A stretch of 34,193 bases of DNA. Source: Lobulomyces angularis (Eukaryota; Chytridiomycota; Chytridiomycetes; Lobulomycetales; Lobulomycetaceae). Shown here piece by piece: positions 11,346-33,500 of the stretch. Within the stretch, counting starts at the first letter, position 1. Each line of letters starts with the position of its first letter. The notes beneath the pieces were generated by a model, which worked only from the letters and a program-made list of their open reading frames with translations, did not search any database and was not told the origin of the DNA. The stretch is taken from positions 1 through 34,193 of the forward strand of contig JADHYX010000229.1 in assembly GCA_027604685.1 (NCBI GenBank), in the 5' to 3' direction. The translations under genes were made by a program, and so were the position numbers.

Positions 11346-14300
11346 TCATGAATAAAATCCATATTTTCTGTTTTTTAAATTTCCGTTAAACGATACTGCA
11401 TTTAGATGAAAATCTAACAAACAGATATCACTAAAATTAAATCTAAAATTGGTTTCATTTATGATTTTTTTGAAATAATTATCATCTTGAAGTAAACTAA
11501 AATTTTTGTGAGCGAAGAATTTCAAGCCAGCTGCATTGGGTACCTTATTCTTTGATAATTCATCATCTTTAAAAAGGTATTTATTTAGAAGCAGGTTATA
11601 ATTATTAAAGTGATAAAATAAATTATATAATCCGTCATTTGCAACAAAGCTGATAAAATAGCACCACCAAAAGTTAATTTTTTGTAGGTGGGTTGATAAA
11701 GGAGACTCCTCATTACAAAAGGAGTTTGTTTTTAAATTGCTAAATTTCATCTTTTTGTCAAATTTCTTGTATTTAAAATATTTCTTAAACTTTATCCATG
11801 GTTTGGCGAAAATTAACTGTGCTTCAAAATCTAACGCCTGGTACTTAAAGAATGTTACTTCCTCCTTAACTTTAAATTTTTCTAGGTTAGTGACATCTCC
11901 ATCTTTATTCTTAAGAAAATTGTAATTGCTCAAAATTCCATTTAACTTATTAAAACAATGTTCCTCATTATTCGCAACTTTTTTTTCTGTTGATTCAAAA
12001 AGACACCCTTTATATCCTCCTAAACTAATACCAAACAGTTGATCAAAATTTTTGTTAAATTTACGCTCGTTGTTAAAATAATTCTGTATTTGTAAATGCA
12101 AAAAGTTCAACCAAAATTTTGAAAACATTATATTTTCATTTAAAAAAATTGCGATTTCTTCTTCATTACCATCAGTTTTAGGATTCCAGGAATTAATAAA
12201 ACTTAAGTTACTGTCATAGTCTACATTATCTGTGTATTTAAATATTAGTTTTTTTGTTCCCTTTTCCCACATAAAGCTATTTAAAAAGTCCAAGTCTGAG
12301 TTGTTCATCATTACATCATCCTTTGTACCTTCAACTATAATGTCTAAATCAATAATGGGATATTTCAACTCCAAAACATTTTGATCGATATTTTTCAGAT
12401 TTGAATTTTTAATGCTAATTAATAGCCTTTCTAAATTTTTTAATCCTTTCATAGTCCCAAATATTTTTAAAATTAACTTGTAGCTTGTAATAGTCAAGTT
12501 TGCATCATTACTAAAATTTTCTTTGCAATTTAGTCCATTGGATGTAAAATCATTTAAACCCCACATATTGTGAAGTTTAAACCTCGCAATTTTTTTGTCA
12601 ATGCCTCTAATAAAATTGTTGTGTATAGTTATTGGCCACGTATTTGTAATTTTCTTTTCTACAAAAATATTTATGGAAATAGTTAGTGGATTCTGTAATA
12701 TATCTTACTAAAAAAATTTTTTCCTGAAGGAAATTTTTCGACTGGTAAATAAAAAATCTTAATTCCTCCGTCAATTTCATCTCTTTGGTGAACTTTAGAA
12801 TTCAAAATTGACTGTTCGTTTTTATTAAAAATATTATTTCGCAATGCGATTTTAAATTCACTCAAAATGCCATTCCAAAACTTCACAACTTTTTCTAAAA
12901 AAAATTAACAATAAAAATCACACAAAAATTTTCAATAAAACAATACCAGATGATTTGAGAAATAAAAAACCTCCACACAAACTCCTATGATTTTGGACAG
13001 GCTACATTAGACAGAATTAAAAAAATTAAATATCAATATCTATACATCAATCTGCCCAATAACATCATAGCCCTTTCGAATTTTTCCAAATAAATAACTT
13101 CTTGGATCCTCAGACCAAATCATATCGGTATCTGCCAGAAGCACAGAATAATTTTTTTCTAATATACTAACAAAATATTGGAAAAAAAAATAAAATTCTT
13201 TTATTAAAATAAAAACAAATACCTAGACACTGTAGATGTTCTGTCAAGCATTAAATTCAAAAATCCTTTTTTCCCGTATTCAATCTGCTTATTTTCCAAA
13301 TTGCCATTGTTGTGACCACTGTCTACGAAAATAACTTCTTCTCCTATGTTCATTAAAAAATTGTATATTATTAAATCAGCTGCGATAAACAATCTGTTCT
13401 GATGTAAATTGATATTTTTTAAGTGACACAAAAAGTTTGAAACCATTAAAAGTTGATTCTTGTTAACGTAAAATATAATAACAAATTTAATATTTAAATC
13501 TTCAACATATAAAGAGCATCTTGCAAGCACTTTGTTTAAAAGTGAATCTGAATCTGGTCCAATTGATGAATTTGCAAATGCGTTAAACTTCTGGACACTG
13601 AAGGAAGACAATAGTGACGGTTCGAAGTTTAAATTGATCTCAATTTCTGGCATTGAATAATTGATCACTGTGGAAACTAATTTTTTCTCTATATTAAAGT
13701 TTGGCCAGTCACCAATAGATGAAAAATTTCCTATATCAGAATTAATGGTGATGTTTCTTTTCGCTAAAGTTACAGCTGCCCCAGTGCTATCTACCTCATT
13801 TAAATATAGGTTGAATACATTCATTTGTTTAGAAAAATCCAAAAAATAGCACCACCAGTTCAAATTGAATTCGTTAAAATACATATTGCTATTGTTCTCT
13901 GCTGCATTTAATTCGCAATTTTTTTTTACGTTGAATCTTTCACTAAAAGTCATATTTTTCACGTTTTCTGAATATAATAGAAAATTATTCCAGTTTTCCG
14001 AAAAAAAAACTTGAGCAAAAACATCTACTAATTGATATTTATAAGTATCTACTGTTGTCTGTTCTTTTTTTCTCAAAAAATTTTTTTCATTTAATAAATC
14101 AAAGGTATTGTTTAAAATTTTTTCACAAATATCGATCTTGTTCAAGTCTACATCAACTTTTTTATTAACCTTTTTAAACAAACACCCTTGATATCCTCTT
14201 AAACTAACGCCAAAGTACTCTTTTCTACTTCTTGTAGAATTTGGGGAGAAAAAATTGCGATTCAAGATGTTCACCAAAATCTCTAACCAAAATTCTGAAA

Positions 14301-15729
14301 AAACGATATCATCGTTTAAAAATATCGCTACATCTTCTACAAATTTCTGGCTGTTATTGATATTAAAATTTGGTTTCCAGCTCTCAAAAATTTGTAAACT
14401 CCTTCCCACATACTTTTTTCTAGCATGAATCTTTTTCTTTCCATATTTCCACCTAAAATTCAAAGCTGTTTTAATGGTTTTTTCACGATCAGAAAAACTG
14501 TCTAGTGTATACTGCGATTTTCTCTTTCTGTCATCATCAATAAATATATCCAAATCAATTTTAAGTTCACTATTCGTAGATAAAAGTAAAAAGTCAAAAT
14601 TTGTGTTTTTAAGTGATTTAAGCAAATTTTCCAAAGACGTATAACCCTTAAAGTTAGTAAAGATTTTCAATACCAATCTATATTTCTGTGCCACATTAAA
14701 TTAATAAGTTATAGTAGTTTTTTGCATTAATTTATAAACCTCAGATACATTTTTTTCATTGACTTCAAAACTTTTACCCACCTCCTTAACGTCGATTTCT
14801 TTCAATGGATACCCCAAAAAGATATCATTATCACGAGAACCATCCATAGGAGATTCCAGCTATATTTAACTAGATTAAAAATTTCATGTAACTTTTGTAA
14901 TACGTTAGGGGTGAAATTATCGTCAATCTGTATTTCAAAATTATTATCCGCAACAACTGTTTCGGGGAATAAATGAGATGAATTCTAAAAATTATATGTA
15001 ATTTTTTTAGTGAGTATTCATATTAACTATTCATACTACCTCTTTTTTTTGTTGATATCCTTCATTTTCCAGATCTGTAGAGTTATCAATATTATCAGTG
15101 GTTAAAACATTTGATAAAGTTTTTTTTAAACCCTTAATAAGAAGTCTATCAGTTAATTACAAACAATATAAAATTACGTTTTCAATTCCTTGTGGCATGT
15201 CGAAACTTTTTTTGTTTTCAATTACTTCCTCAGTATTCAAATTTTTTTCTACCTTTTTGTCATCATCAACGATATTATTTGATTTTTCTTCCACGTTAGC
15301 ATCAGGTACATTGACTTCAACTTTTTCCATTTCTACCAGATTTTCAACTCCACTTAATGGTGGATCAATATTATCAAAACTCTCAAATGGTTCTATTTCT
15401 GGGCTATTTTCGAAACGAGAATCAATAACATCATCTTTCTCACTAACTATCTCAGCAGTTTCTCGCGCGGAACCTTCCACTGCTTCTTCTAAATCAGTAA
15501 TCAAAGAGTCAATCTCCGATTCATAGTCGCCGTTTTCCTTGTTATTTCCTTGAAATTCCATAATATCTGAATCATCATAGTCTTTATATCTCCCTAAAAA
15601 AGGACTTTAACCAAATTGTTTGCAATGCTTACTGGTGTTGTTAAGTTGCAGAAAAAAAGAGATCGCAACGATAAAGAATATAAATACTGGCAATCTGCGG
15701 ATAAAGAAGGAACTTATAGAAGATCTCAT
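11346..15729 (-). CDS. Multidomain type II membrane glycosyltransferase (GT-A-like, GT77-like, diverged GT-A-like)
   Basis: Ten minus-strand exons (15729-15633, 15593-15178, 15132-15040, 14984-14904, 14859-14740, 14685-13223, 13166-13046, 13001-12947, 12894-12709, 12658-11346) join in frame to 1314 residues. Residues 13-29 form an uncleaved signal anchor (LPVFIFFIVAISFFLQL), and 34-265 an acidic stem, as in Golgi enzymes. Domain 1 (270 to about 600) is GT-A-like, with AIFLNDDIVFSEFW (NDD at 393-395) and a late WWCYF. Domain 2 (about 667-908) matches the Nucleotid_trans/GT77 pattern: LLADTDMIWSEDP (DTD 769-771), SLCGGFLFLKS, NEQSILN and IHNNFIRGIDKKIARF. Domain 3 (936 to about 1215) repeats domain 1, including YKLILKIF, SWNPK, GISLGGYKGCLF and WWCYF, but with NEN in place of NDD. 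A luminal role in building glycans of glycoproteins or cell wall is likely. Donor and acceptor sugars cannot be read from the sequence. Confidence 0.85.
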
Positions 15730-18958: not shown

Positions 18959-21900
18959 TCAATTTTCTGTAGTTGACTGACAAAATTTTTTTTTTGGTGG
19001 TAAGTTTTTTCGAAAGCGCTTGTGTATATAACCATCACTTGCACTACTATCGATATTGGTAACGGTTTCTGTAGATTTAGCTTCCGTGACAACAGTCGAA
19101 CTGATGGAAATTAAAGAGCTATTGGAATTACCTTTGGATAAAACAGAATTTACTGTTGAATTATTTAAGGTAGATGGAACTGCATTATCTGATAAATCCC
19201 CAAAATTTTCTAAATTAAGAGGAATAATTTTAAGGAAATCTTTAAAACTTTTGAGTTCGCCTTCTAGTTTGTTTTTGTAGGTTTCATAAACCACTTCTAT
19301 CTCTTTAAATACTTCCTCTTCTTTTAAAAAATGAATATCATAATTGGATAACACTAAACCTTTTTTTCCTTCGTTATTTGTTGAAGTTCTTAGGTACTGC
19401 GGATTGATTCCAATTAGTAACATTAAATTGTAGACTGATTCAGAAAGTGGACTCCGTTCAAGTCGTTGTTTTTCAGATGTTATAGCCACCTTTTTTATTA
19501 GATTAGGATGCTTCTCCAAAAAGTCTGGACACTTTCGGTAACCCCATAGTAAAGATATTTGCATGTCGGTAATGTACCTAGACGTCTTTTTAACGTTTTC
19601 ATTGTCAGGAAGTGAAACGGCGTAAATAGCAACATCTTTCAGTCTTTTTAACATGAGCAATTTCATTTCTTCGGTTTCCAGCAATTTACTTTCCAACGAT
19701 TTTATTTCAGTAGGCGAACTGACATGTAATGAATCTGGAACCGAATCTCTTCTCCCCAACAAACTGGCTGTTAGTTCCTGGCCATCTTTTACATCGACAG
19801 GGGCAGTCCAGTCCTTTTTTTTTTTTATTTTTTTCTTTAATACAGAGGCAGGCACTGGAGCTGAAGGGGTTTCAATCGCAGGAATATTTGGTTTACTGGT
19901 AGAGGGAGAAGAAGTGTCTTTCCTTTCTCCGACTACAATATTCTTTACATTTAAAGCTTTTACTTTATTAAAATCAATTTTTTCCGAAGGTTTTAATGAA
20001 CTAGAACCACCTTTCTTTTCGGTATTAACATCTTCACTTTTTTCAGTTTTAACTACAGATTTTTCAATTTTAACAGTTTCCACAGATTGTTTTTCTGAAA
20101 TGTTGGAATCATTAACATTGGCATAACCTGTAAGATTAGAAATTTTTCTCTTCTTTCGTTGAGGGCTTTTTATAGTAACAGCAAGACTCGACGAAAGTTT
20201 ATGTTCTCCTTCTTTCTTGGAAGTATTTGGTTCTAAAAAAAGAGAAGTTGAGAATAAAAAAAAAATTATTTTTAGTAAAACCTGAATTTTCTAAAACATC
20301 TAATTTCTTTTTAGTTATTTTTTCCTTTTCTTTGTGTTCTTTTTTGATCTCTATATTCGAACTACTGTCCAATGCAGGTTCGTCTTCAATCTTCACTCTT
20401 TTTCTATCTGGCGAACTATCCCTTCCTTTTTGAAATCCTATTTCATCATCTTCATCAAGCGAATCTGTTCTTCTCCTTGGTGGCCGCCCAGGGCCTCTCT
20501 TTTTTTTCCCTTCGTTTGTCAAATCATTATCAGAGTATTTCAAGTCTTCATTGCTGTTATCCTTTTTTCTGTCGGTAAACTTATCTTTTCTTTTTCTTTC
20601 TGAGGAACCCGAAACTCCTTCACTTTGCTCTAAGTTTCTAATCAATGCTTGAATTTTTCTCTCCTCTCTTAGAGACATTTTAGTTGTATCGCTCGCACCC
20701 CACCATGTTGCAAGCCCTTTAGTGGTTAAATCTCTGGGATTTTCCTCAGAATCAACAGAATCAGCCCGAAATACTTTTTTTTTTTTTTCCCTATCTATTT
20801 CAACGGAGGAATTTCTACTCATTAACGATTCTGTATCTACTGTAGTACTTTTTTCATTTGGTATTACTGAAGGATTGAATTCCGCAGTTCGGTGTGGGAG
20901 CCATGTCGATTTGTCTCGCTTTAACAAATCCATAATTTTTGTTCTTAGCTTACTAGATCCATTATTGCTATTCAAAGAGGCTTGTATAGAGTCATTCCCA
21001 GCATTATTTTTCAATAAAACATTTGCACCAAATTCAAGTAAAACTTCCACCGTTTTATATTCACAGTTTGTTACTGCGTCCATCAATGCAGTGTCGCCAT
21101 CTAAACCAGCAGCGTCAACAGAAGCTCCATGCAAAAGTAAATATTCAACAACTTCGTGATGACCATTGAGAGAAGCTTCATGTAGAGGAGTCCAACCAGC
21201 GTTATCTTGTCCATTAACGTTAGCACCCATATTAATATATTCCTTCACTTTACCCAGTTCCCCATTAGCACAAGCATGATGTAAAGGTGTAAGACCATTC
21301 ATATCCTTGGTGAGTACTTTTTTTAAACTTTCCTGCCATTTTTTTAAATACATAATAATCCTCTTATCAGTGGCTACATCATATGGAGTTTCTTGGTCGT
21401 CATTTCGCAAGCTTGTGGAAGCCCCATTTTCAAGTAAAAACTGAACTACTTCAAAGTGGTGATTGGCACATGCATCATGTAGAGGTGTATCCTTATTATC
21501 CCCAACTGAGTTAACATCTGCTCCTGCTTGTACCAGGCATTTGACAATTTCTAAATGTCCATTGAGGCAGCTTTCATGGAGGGCAGTACAGTCAGCATTA
21601 TCACGTTGATGAATATTGATGCCTGCATTAATAAGTGCCTTGACTGATTCCAAATCGTTATTTGCAGCATGTTTAAACAACCTGTGTCTACCGCTTCGAT
21701 CCTTATCGTTTATCATTGAAAAAGGTAATGGGCGTTTTCTTCCCAATAAAATGACTCCTTCTTCTTTACCCACATCCAGTGAAGGTGATTTTCTTAAATG
21801 CCTATCCTTAAATGGTGATGTTTCGTCTCTGGTATATTCATCGCCTGATTTTACCTTTCGAATAATTTTTTTTGTAAGAATCTTTTGGCCACTGGAAGAT

Positions 21901-23880
21901 TTAGTTTTCTTAGCATACTCTTTTAATTTTTTTTGTTGCAAATCCAAGAAATCATCTGTATGCTTATTTTTTGACCCTGGTGGCCTACCTGGGCCTCTTC
22001 TTTTTTTAGAACTATCCAAGTTTGATCCAGTCTTTAAGGATTTTTTTAATTTATCCTTGGCAATTTCAGTATCACTATCAGAAGAATTTTCCTGTCCACT
22101 TCCAGCGGATTTCTGAGAAGGGCAATCTTCGTCACTGCCACTTTTCGCAGTATGTGTTTTACTACCACGATTTTTCTTCTCACCATCATCGTCACTGCTA
22201 AAATCACCTCCATATTCACTAGATATATCTGACTCTCCAAAAATATCAGCTGGCTTTGATTTTTTTTCTAATGGAATAATTTCTTTTATTGGCAGAGAAT
22301 TTTCAGAAATGGAAGGTATAGCACCAATTTTATTTGGTGAAACAGTTATTTTTAATAAAGGCGAAGAGGCTCTCACAATATCCATTGAAGAATTACAATC
22401 CTCTTGATTAATGGTTTTTGGCCCATGATAATTAGCGATCTTTGAATCATTTGGAGGGTGCTGACTTTGGGTATTATTACTACTGGTATTTATATTTCCT
22501 GTTATTACTTCTAAAAAAAAGTCAAAAAAAAAAAAATTTCAAACAATTATCAGTACCATCTTTGACAGCAGTGTCTGTGTTTTCAACTTTATTGAACTCC
22601 GGGGAATTAATTAATGGCAATTTTCCTTTGTCTTTCGCAGGACTTAATGATGGAGATTTTTTTAATTTTTTCAAATTTGCAGATCTTTCAGGTGTTGACC
22701 TACTAGAACTGGAATTTTTACTTGCATTTTTGGTATCATTGATTCTATTATCTCCTTTTCTAGTGCGAGATCTTCCTCTTGATGGACTACTTGATGAAGC
22801 AGAAGTACTCCTAGAATTTTTTTGTCGCCTTGACCTCGAAGAGCCTAAACTGGAATCTGATGAAAAGCTATTACTATCCACGGAAGAATAACGTTTTGAA
22901 TGATCGCCTTCAAATCTTTTATCATTAAACCTTTCGAAACTGCTACTACGTCGTCTCTCATGAAATCTATCTGGGCTGACACTGCGACGATACATACCAC
23001 CTTTTCTGTCTAAATCCCTATCTGGCTCCACCCAACCTCTGCGATTTCTAAAATTTGAGTTATAATTTCCATAATTTCGCCGATGTTCAGGGTGGTGATT
23101 TGGACCATTATAACGATTTGGTCTCTGAAAAGCGTCTCTCGAATAAGAAGAGTTATTTCTATCATAATTGTTTCTTTCCCAATTATAACGGTCTCTTTGG
23201 TAATCATCATGCGAAGGGTAATTCAAATCATCATATAGATATGGTTCATGCCGCCGAAAATCTCCTCTATCATAAAAGTTTCTCTCCCTCCCACTATCTA
23301 AATAAGGATTTCTAGATCTACCAAAACGGTCAGATGATCCTGGTCTTCTATCAAAATCGTCCATACCATTTGGCAAATCAATTGAATGATCATTTCCCCG
23401 TCTTCTATTATCGTAAATTCGGGACCGATCATCTCTCTCACGTATTCTATCTCTATCATCCTTCTCGCGCGATACAATATCAATTGCATTTGACGTACTA
23501 TGCGCATCTGAATTTTTTTTTGGCTGAAAATTTTCATTATTTTGTTTATAACTCAAGTCCAAAGGAGGTTTCCCTATAGTTTCAGACATCTTTTCACTAA
23601 CTGGTATAATTTTTGATTTTAATTGAGTAGAATGAATTATATGTGAAGATTGATTTAAATTGTAAGTTATTTTTTCTATTGCTGTATTTTCTGAAAAAGA
23701 ATTCAAAATTTTGGATATATTCCTAGTAGGAGAAGAGGTATAATTTGAATTCAAGTGATTATTTTTAGAGTAATTCTTGTTGTCTACATTAAGAGCAAAA
23801 TAGGGAAATTAATAACAGTAGATGAAAATTTATTAATCACTGATAAACGGAAGTGACAACTTTATTGAAGCAGTTTCCAT
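18959..23880 (-). CDS. Large ankyrin-repeat, AT-hook chromatin protein, Hos4-like (Set3 complex)
   Basis: Minus-strand exons 23880-23841, 23783-22557, 22510-20282 and 20232-18959 join in frame to 1589 residues. About 80-400 is rich in Arg, Asp, Tyr and Ser (RS-like and DR-rich, low complexity). An acidic region follows, then AT-hook 1 (KRRGPGRPPGSK, 592-604). Two blocks of ankyrin repeats (about 696-800 and 827-934) carry TALHESCLNGHLEIV, TPLHDACANHHFEVV, TPLHHACANGELGKV and TPLHEASLNGHHEVV. AT-hook 2 (KKRGPGRPPRRR, 1091-1103) comes next, then a less charged domain at about 1290-1480. This order resembles fungal Hos4, the ankyrin subunit of the Set3 histone deacetylase complex, and animal ANKRD11/12. 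Chromatin binding through the AT-hooks is likely; orthology is inferred. The RS-rich exon is joined by phase-1 splices to the ankyrin exon, so it belongs to this gene. Confidence 0.8.
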
Positions 23881-30526: not shown

Positions 30527-33500
30527 ATGAATAATCAACAAAAAAAAAACGAAAGTTTTCAAAGAAGTGGTACCTTTGACGAAGAGGAGGATTCCGATGA
30601 TGAGAATAGAGTAGTTGAGGTATTTTACCTTTTTTTACCTTTGCAATTTCTTATGCTCTTTTGTTTATTATTATATTTAAGACTTCACCGGATGGAAGAT
30701 TTGAAAGATACAACATTTGTCTAGGAAAAGGAGCTTATAAAGAAGTTTTTAAAGCTTTTGATCAAGAGAATGGATTTGAGGTAGCCTGGAATCATCTGAG
30801 ATTGGATAATTTTAGTAAACGTGATCAAACAAGAATTTTATCTGAAATTAGAATTCTAGAATCACTACGCAATGATAGTATTATCAATCTCTTTAGCTCT
30901 TGGATTGCTAAAGGAAAAGATGGAAAAGAAAAAGTTATATTTATTACCGAGCTGATGACTTCGGGAACTTTAAAAAATTACATAAAAAAAACTAAAGGGC
31001 AAATTAAGCCTAAAATTTTGAGAAGTTGGTCAAGACAAATTTTAAATGGTTTATTGTATTTACATACTAGAGATCCTCCTATTATTCATAGGTAGAAAAA
31101 TTTTTTTAGATTGAATTAATCCACTTTTTTTTTTAGGGATTTGAAATGTGAAAATATTTTTATAAATGGCCACAATGGGCAAGCTAAGATTGGGGACATG
31201 GGATTAGCAGCTATAAAATACAGGGATCACATGTCTTCTGTTTTGGGGTACATTGTTCTTCTTTTTTCAAAATAACTAATAAACTTCACAATAAACAATC
31301 ACTAGTACTCCTGAGTTTATGGCACCGGAATTATATGAAGAAAATTACGATGAGAAAGTTGATGTATACGCATTCGGAATGGTAGGTTTACTCCTATACA
31401 AGTTCCATTAATAGTATTAAAAATAGGTTGTATTGGAGATGGTAACTCGAGAATATCCGTATAAAGAATGTACAAATCAAGCCCAAATTTATAAAAAAGT
31501 TTCTTCTAATATCAAACCTCAAGCTTTACAAAAAATAGCTGATGAAAAAACTAGGTCTTTTATTGAATTATGTATTCTTTTCGATAAAAACGTTAGGCCT
31601 AGTGTTGAGGAATTACTTAACCATGAATTTTTAGCCGATACTGGATTGTGCAGTCTGTCTGGTTCTACTGGGTCACTTACTTTGATTTCTCCAATTTTCT
31701 CCCCCAAAGACACTCCTAAGGATACCCCTGTTAATTCTACATCTAATTTAATGGTAAGATAAATTCCAGATATCTTTTTTTATTATTATCATTTTTTTTA
31801 TTTTTTCTAGGAAAATTTTAGTTCATTTCCTTTTGGCGACAACAATAGTTCTTCCATTTCTAACATATCTGCTACTAATAGTCCCAGATTTTTTTCACCA
31901 ATTTTATCATCTCCTATGCAAAATATGGAAGAAATCTTATATACCAATACTCCTGCCCATATAACTGCTTCTTTTGATGTAGTAGATTCTGATACACACA
32001 CATTTCACATAACGAAGCATATCGACAAAGAAAACATGGAAAATTTATTGCCAGATGGTATGCAAGACGGAATTCTTATTGAAGTTATAGGAGAACCATC
32101 GTTGAACGAAGTTATTTTGCAAATGGTTTACTGTCCTAAAAGTTCACATTCTGAAACAATAAAGTTTCCTTTTAATTTGGATGAAGACACTGCAACTGAT
32201 GTTATTAGGTTTGTTAAAAATATTCTAATGATTTTTCGTTGACCTTTTCAAAAACATTGCAGTGAAATGGTGCAAGAAAATCTAATTCATGAACAGGACG
32301 AACAATTAGCGAGGAGAAAATTAGAGGCAGTTATTAGGAAAGTTCTTTTAGGACGCCGAAACAACATTTCCAATGGACCCCAATATTTTCAGCAAGATTC
32401 TAACAATTTTTTAGTTTCTGATGAAAAAAAGACAACCGATATTAATTTATTGCCATATGTATGTTTTACACCTTTAATTAATGTCTATTTTTTAATTTTT
32501 TTTTTTTAGAATCGACATATCTTTTCAAACGATTTTACCCATAATAAAGGTTTAGTTAATGAGAACATTTATCAAAATGCCTCTTCACCTATAAGGTCTC
32601 CTAGTACTCAAGTAAATAATGATGTCACTGACTCTCGATTACTGCCACCACGACTTCCGGTGAGTCAAACAAGTTACTCCATCCCTCATAAGGAAAAAAT
32701 CAACTCACCTCCTAGTATCAACCGCAACATATTTCCAACTTCCCCACGACGAACTGCAACATTTAACACATTGAACTCTCCAATAAACGTTGGAAGAAAT
32801 AAAAGAAATTTTTCTGACGAATCATCTGTGTCTTCAACATATTCTCGACCAACAACACCGAATGGAGGCGGTTATGTAATAAATCCTCTCACTGGTCAGC
32901 TAATTTTCGTTCAGGGAGAGGATCCTTACTTGCAACCTCAAATACATCAAAGCAACTATCCGTATAACGGATTATTTACCCCATACAAGCTATCTGATAT
33001 AAAGCACCATCACCCTGGAGGAGCTGGTGAACAATTTCCGTATTTAAGAGGAGTTTCATCATCTTCAAATAACAGCGCAAAATCTAGCATTAGCAGCAGC
33101 GAATCAATAATAATTCCAAACGGCAACGGGGAATTTTTTGAGTATGTAAGATCGGGCAGGCCAGTTATTCCAAATCCTGTCGTGGTAACTGGTGAACAGT
33201 TTGGAGGGTATTCTCAGCACTTTAATAGACAGTATATTCCCCTGCAACAGCATATTCCGCAATATCCTTCTGAAGAAGCTTACTTTAGACAAGCACAACA
33301 GCCTGCGTACAAACCTGATGAAGTAAACTTAGAAAAATTTAGTAAGCAACAGCAGTTTGCCGAGAATTTATCTATTTCAACTGAGGAAGGATGTTCAGTA
33401 GAAAAAATAAAAGATATTCACAATTTCATAAATTCTGAAAGGCAAAGTAACAAAAGCAGCCTCACCGTGGATAATCTAAATGTTGCCACAAATACAACTT

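Follow-up and report, generated by a model that had tools for sequence, protein, structure and literature searches.

The closest solved folds for the two outer domains of the protein described here are those of GnT-I, POMGNT1 and GnT-II (GT13/GT16), none of which has a GT77 part. In GnT-I the acidic donor motif is E211-D212-D213, of which only D213 directly coordinates the metal (PMC7014118), and the relatives of our domains share this kind of motif. Characterised plant members of GT77 are arabinosyl- or xylosyltransferases (PMC3797821). GT77 is likewise fused to another transferase domain in the Branch (PF02485) plus Nucleotid_trans architecture described for early-diverging fungi (PMC8778642), where, unlike in the locus studied here, the partner is present in one copy and is not GnT-I-like. 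A transferase fold seemingly without catalysis can also serve as an accessory domain or scaffold, as in LH3/PLOD3 and COSMC (PMC6082870, PMC7185993), which belong to other families and have no GT77; for the central GT domain of LH3, an accessory role has been proposed (PMC6082870). Finally, a 2012 survey assigns residues 70 to about 320 of the plant protein AT5G12260 by fold recognition to a GnT-I-like fold and gives “no indication” for residues 320-624 (PMC3522684). The titles and abstract openings covered by our literature search held no pointer to a fusion of GT77 with a GnT-I-like domain.

The window, by which we mean the whole 34,193-nucleotide stretch of DNA analysed, carries on its minus strand a gene in which a GT77 domain lies between two copies of a GT-A domain, A1 and A2. 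Spliced from 15729 to 11346, the minus strand gives exactly 1314 residues in ten exons without an internal stop, and the coding sequence stays open over 3945 nt. The nine introns of this predicted splice model are of the GT-AG type and 39-56 nt long; eight of them contain an in-frame stop, and intron 4, which has none, would shift the frame with its 44 nt. The longest stop-free run on the minus strand of the window reaches 498 codons; in 500 first-order resamples of this DNA, no run exceeded 138. Exon 6 (13223..14685, aa 270-757) carries A1, the first joint and the beginning of GT77 in one open frame, and exon 10 (11346..12658, aa 878-1314) holds the GT77 tail (IHNNFIRGIDKKIARF), the second joint, A2 and the stop codon, again in one open frame. 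Consequently, neither joint hangs on a predicted splice.

A second assembly agrees on the three-domain fusion. The Clydaea vesicula record P0069 (HK099_005804, 1258 aa), which comes from a contig of 60,563 bases, is the same gene, annotated as one protein with all three domains and differing from the window protein at four amino acids. It lacks exon 1, starting at an internal methionine, and also 13 residues at the start of A1, owing to a different acceptor for intron 5. These residues form the first strand of the domain and recur in A2, in a paralogue from the same genome and in the aligned relatives; we therefore prefer the 1314-residue model at this point. We conclude that this is one gene encoding one long protein. 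An earlier note on this DNA had joined the exons across nine introns into a single 1314-residue protein, and both the splicing and P0069 bear this out. The wrong joining of two or three adjacent genes would fit the nearly complete state of both A1 and A2 and the methionine at aa 909, just past GT77, but it is hardly credible given that both joints lie in uninterrupted exons, that A1 has no methionine near its start, that P0069 joins all three domains and that four further proteins (P0002, P0003, P0012 and P0018) have the GT77-to-GT-A joint in one polypeptide. Separate genes were rejected, the joints lying inside single exons and P0069 being one protein. With regard to separate transcripts with starts near 14694 and 12566, which the earlier note had named as counting against its model, the protein is free of methionine between aa 234 and 514, which leaves A1 without its own start near 14694; the in-frame methionine at aa 909 does lie close to 12566. 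Homologues that always occur as separate genes, the other observation said to speak against the model, are not what we find, both domains being present in 22 of the first 30 relatives listed.

Exon 1 (15633..15729, minus strand) supplies the start codon and the signal anchor (MRSSISSFFIRRLPVFIFFIVAISFFLQLNN) proposed in the earlier note, the most hydrophobic 19-residue stretch beginning at aa 9. Exons 2-5 (14740..15593, minus strand) encode an acidic stem, aa 33-269, with 63 D+E against 23 K+R in 237 residues and no significant match to our GT-A and GT77 profiles. A short cytosolic tail, a hydrophobic anchor, an acidic stem and lumenal domains make up the anatomy of a type II Golgi transferase. 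By this likeness, the window protein is probably a type II membrane protein of the Golgi.

The GT77 domain (12579..13407, minus strand, across exons 6-10) matches PF03407 over aa 696-904 with 91.5 bits against a cut-off of 22 (E 9.8e-26, profile positions 2-208 of 208), as the HMM check suggested in the earlier note for its GT77-like middle part would have it, and scores 130 bits in an hmmsearch with a profile built without window rows. A sequence search of the PDB with GT77 returned a single chance-level match (E 1.3). At the aligned columns the domain keeps DTD (aa 769-771), GG (aa 807-808, in CGGF) and HNN (aa 890-892, in HNNF); we take a DxD and a C-terminal HNN-type motif to be the markers of GT77, a choice also read from P0012. 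Among the 31 tabulated relatives, only P0012 has all three motifs. P0018 has DVD, GG and HAN, and in every other tabulated protein that has a GT77 part one or more of the three is missing. These two proteins, P0012 and P0018, are also the nearest to the window GT77 in sequence (63.9 and 52.9 bits).

The outer domains A1 (aa 270-660, exon 6, 13513..14685, minus strand) and A2 (aa 927-1314, exon 10, 11349..12512, minus strand) are 29% identical to each other (E 1e-26), and a GT-A profile built without window rows finds each alone, A1 with 97 bits and A2 with 57 bits. Pfam reported no family for either at E up to 10, GNT-I (PF03071) included, in a search whose filters drop most matches above E 0.1; PF03071 occurs only in remote relatives of the paralogue, and those with a named source are bacterial. 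Sequence searches of the PDB with A1 and with the GT-A domain of the paralogue gave no match. Comparison of predicted structures places A1 closest to POMGNT1 and GnT-I and A2 closest to GnT-II and GnT-I, the structural alignments with these three enzymes showing 6 to 12% identity. A1 and A2 are sister copies of a GT-A domain that is GnT-I/GnT-II/POMGNT1-like by its predicted fold; the earlier note, too, had named two GT-A-like copies. They differ from the solved enzymes in lacking EDD or EED as well as the Pfam GNT-I match. The structure model of GT77-A2 is of low confidence (pLDDT 60, pTM 0.51), and we left the relative placement of the domains out of the argument for this reason.

A genome search with A1 found A1, A2 and one further place, the paralogue at C1:34070-36265, which we modelled as 638 residues and which is near-identical to the Clydaea vesicula record P0001 (HK099_003815). 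Its GT-A domain has EDD, TWGQ and HREPG intact. We note that A1 and A2 (13223-14685 and 11346-12658) have no internal introns, and that the GT-A domain of the paralogue has five.

A search with the GT-A part of the paralogue, cut off at E 1, listed 68 proteins. Of the best-listed 30, 22 have both a clear GT-A and a clear GT77 domain. GT77 comes first in four (the chytrid proteins P0002 and P0003, together with P0012 and P0018), and GT-A comes first in the other 18, namely 12 flowering-plant proteins (P0007-P0011, P0013-P0017, P0024 and P0026), the moss protein P0020, and P0019, P0021, P0022, P0029 and P0030. In two more, P0006 and P0027, a weak GT77 tail (22 and 19 bits, respectively) precedes the GT-A domain. 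All ten two-domain proteins scanned with Pfam pass the PF03407 cut-off, eight of them being members of the training set of our purpose-built GT77 profile (P0002, P0003, P0012, P0018, P0020, P0021, P0029 and P0030). That profile contains no flowering plant and is the sole basis on which GT77 was judged in the 12 flowering-plant proteins; run against 71 sequences, it finds the C-terminal half of each of the 12 at E 2e-12 to 2e-18. By these profile matches, fusion of GT77 with a GnT-I-like domain is widespread in eukaryotes, in both orders, and the window gene is not peculiar in that. It also appears that the C-terminal half of AT5G12260-like plant proteins, left unassigned in the 2012 survey (PMC3522684), is a diverged GT77-like domain; our set contains P0011, a Hibiscus protein named after AT5G12260.

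Within this family, the window protein is homologous over both domains but departs from the single GT-A copy with an intact EDD. P0002 (Borealophlyctis HK104_008304) and P0003 (Blyttiomyces BDK51DRAFT_27876) have GT77 before GT-A, like the C-terminal half of the window protein, and P0001 is likewise of the chytrid GT77 plus GT-A type, its GT77 part being only presumed. Unlike the window protein, all three have one GT-A copy with EDD intact, and the GT77 domains of P0002 and P0003 are eroded (DPE and DPA, with neither GG nor HNN), the opposite of what is seen in the window. P0012 and P0018 share with the window protein the order and the presence of DxD and GG, but their EDD is intact too, their GT-A domain is single and P0012 has an extra N-terminal region. 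The AT5G12260-like plant family, the moss protein P0020 and P0019, P0021 and P0022 fuse the same GT-A domain to a GT77-like part; here, however, GT-A comes first, in one copy with EDD, and none has DxD, GG and HNN together. The pairing is shared with plants and other organisms, and what looks unusual is the arrangement in three parts, with decay of the partner that is intact as a rule.

The order A-GT77-A was seen in the window gene only, its P0069 record included, in an insensitive search. Of 1160 candidates from the protein collection, none matched A1 alone at E 1 or below, and aa 270-1314 found only the gene's own record among the 7986 candidates sharing most words that were scored; this second search missed P0003 and P0012, which are homologous and of suitable length, and is thus a weak test of A-GT77-A elsewhere. 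A scan of viral contigs with P0002 found no relative. Within the reach of these searches, the statement of the earlier note that no described enzyme is known to have this order stands for the three-part form; it does not extend to the two-domain fusion.

The outer domains also depart from the family in their donor site. Of the 67 relatives scored, which include P0001 as the paralogue's own record, 65 have EDD and two have EED, in a set found with the EDD-bearing domain of the paralogue as query and therefore favouring EDD-bearing matches. The first 31 of the 68 listed relatives were tabulated in full and the other 37 read at the EDD columns only (34 EDD, two EED, and P0035 not covering the site). 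A1 has NDD instead (aa 393-395, 14316-14308, minus strand) and A2 has NEN (aa 1051-1053, 12140-12132, minus strand). Among 17 rows, made up of 16 hand-picked relatives and the paralogue itself, 51 columns reach a conservation of at least 80%; at these, A1 keeps 29 residues, A2 24 and the paralogue 49. The changes in A1 and A2 extend to the G-x-WG stretch and to two residues of the REPG motif, E and G. Both copies differ at 17 of the conserved columns, and seven of these carry identical replacements, among them N for the glutamate of EDD and those of the two glycines in the G-x-WG stretch. In a tree of 17 of 19 rows (P0005 and P0021 dropped as near copies), A1 and A2 are sisters with 100/99 support, in a clade that unites two long branches (1.4 and 1.66 changes per column, respectively) and includes the unusual composition of A2; the tree leaves the place of the pair among the relatives unsettled. 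The shared replacements and the sister clade make it most likely that the donor site decayed before the duplication.

Our preferred reading, to which we give a probability of roughly 0.6, is that the window gene encodes a GT77 transferase with a pseudo-transferase domain on either side, both of these being largely non-catalytic, and that it derives from a two-domain GT77 plus GT-A enzyme. GT77 would be the catalytic part, dependent on metal and nucleotide sugar and presumably adding one sugar to a cell-wall or secreted glycan. A1 and A2, with catalysis probably lost as their motifs suggest, would be mainly accessory, contributing to acceptor recognition, dimerisation or folding, by analogy with the central domain of LH3 (PMC6082870). 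The ancestor would have been a two-domain enzyme as found in chytrids, plants and other organisms, whose GT-A part lost its donor motif and then duplicated to leave copies on both sides of GT77; the other activity may survive in the separate paralogue of the same genome.

The earlier note had suggested that a single polypeptide could build two successive linkages of one glycan here. An enzyme with two or three genuine activities, in which the sugar added by GT77 is followed by the next from A1, or from A1 and A2, would accord with the GT77 profile match, with the GT-A folds predicted for both copies, with the NDD kept in A1 and with P0012 and P0018, each a single protein in which both sets of motifs are intact or almost so. 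Tandem GT-A domains are known from other proteins, LARGE among them (PMC7185993). With the GT77-A2 model as query, Foldseek ranks LARGE1, LH3 and heparosan synthase 2 first, but the rmsd exceeds 20 and the model is of low confidence. In LARGE, both domains are active. The first acid of EDD, however, is present in all 67 relatives scored, as EDD or EED, and lost in both A1 and A2, and together with the changed G-x-WG and REPG residues and the 22 and 27 altered columns of 51 this makes the two-linkage reading an unlikely one, which we do not favour. A1 does keep the last two acids of its motif, including the aspartate matching GnT-I D213 that A2 has lost, and may on these grounds still bind metal or donor, with residual activity.

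A further alternative is that the A domains work by a changed mechanism, metal-independent or with a different donor, the original donor chemistry being lost. Some inverting transferases indeed work without metal and DxD (PMC7185993), the core folds are predicted to be in place, and A1 and A2 together seem constrained: compared with P0069, the stem has three differences in 226 residues and A1 plus A2 one in 766 (Fisher p 0.039, from four differences in all). Even so, we regard a changed mechanism as improbable. A decaying, pseudogene-like locus, with GT77 and both A copies drifting without function, would explain the very long branches of A1 and A2, but it is very improbable in view of 3945 nt open through nine clean introns, intact GT77 motifs and the fact that only one of the four differences from P0069 falls outside the stem.

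The window gene and its paralogue look like opposites, one having kept GT77 and the other EDD. The N-terminal part of the paralogue has no significant match to the GT77 profile (4.3 bits, E 0.08) and no Pfam match; P0002 and P0003 have at the same place a recognisable GT77 without its motifs. By its position and by analogy with these two proteins, this part is probably a decayed GT77, which is the basis on which we speak of reciprocal loss. We tentatively suggest, at somewhat under even odds, that reciprocal active-site decay has dismantled a two-activity GT77 plus GnT-I-like enzyme whose range extends from chytrids to plants, the decayed domains being kept as accessory parts. If so, GT77 alone would be left in one descendant, clamped between two copies of a pseudo-transferase domain, and the GnT-I-like site alone in the other, next to a dead GT77; this would provide a natural test of how pseudo-glycosyltransferase domains arise within one polypeptide and what they do. 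A fusion of two transferases invites a reading as coupled transfer, and most tabulated members of the family have one site apparently decayed and the domain kept. Opposite decay in two paralogues of one fungus would make the role of pseudo-transferase domains testable by comparison.

Several minor observations accompany these results. The extra N-terminal region of P0012, residues 60-356 of a 963-residue protein, precedes its GT77 and GT-A domains; it may represent a third transferase-like domain, but against the GT-A and GT77 profiles it gave no significant match. Another GT77 gene of this genome (L013 799-3549; G000:C7:28298-31048) has PF02485 and then PF03407 in neighbouring open frames, apparently fused. 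Elsewhere in the window lie a long ankyrin-repeat open frame on the minus strand (20199-22538; PF12796, E 2.6e-48) and a protein kinase fragment on the plus strand (30619-31095; PF00069, E 1.1e-19).
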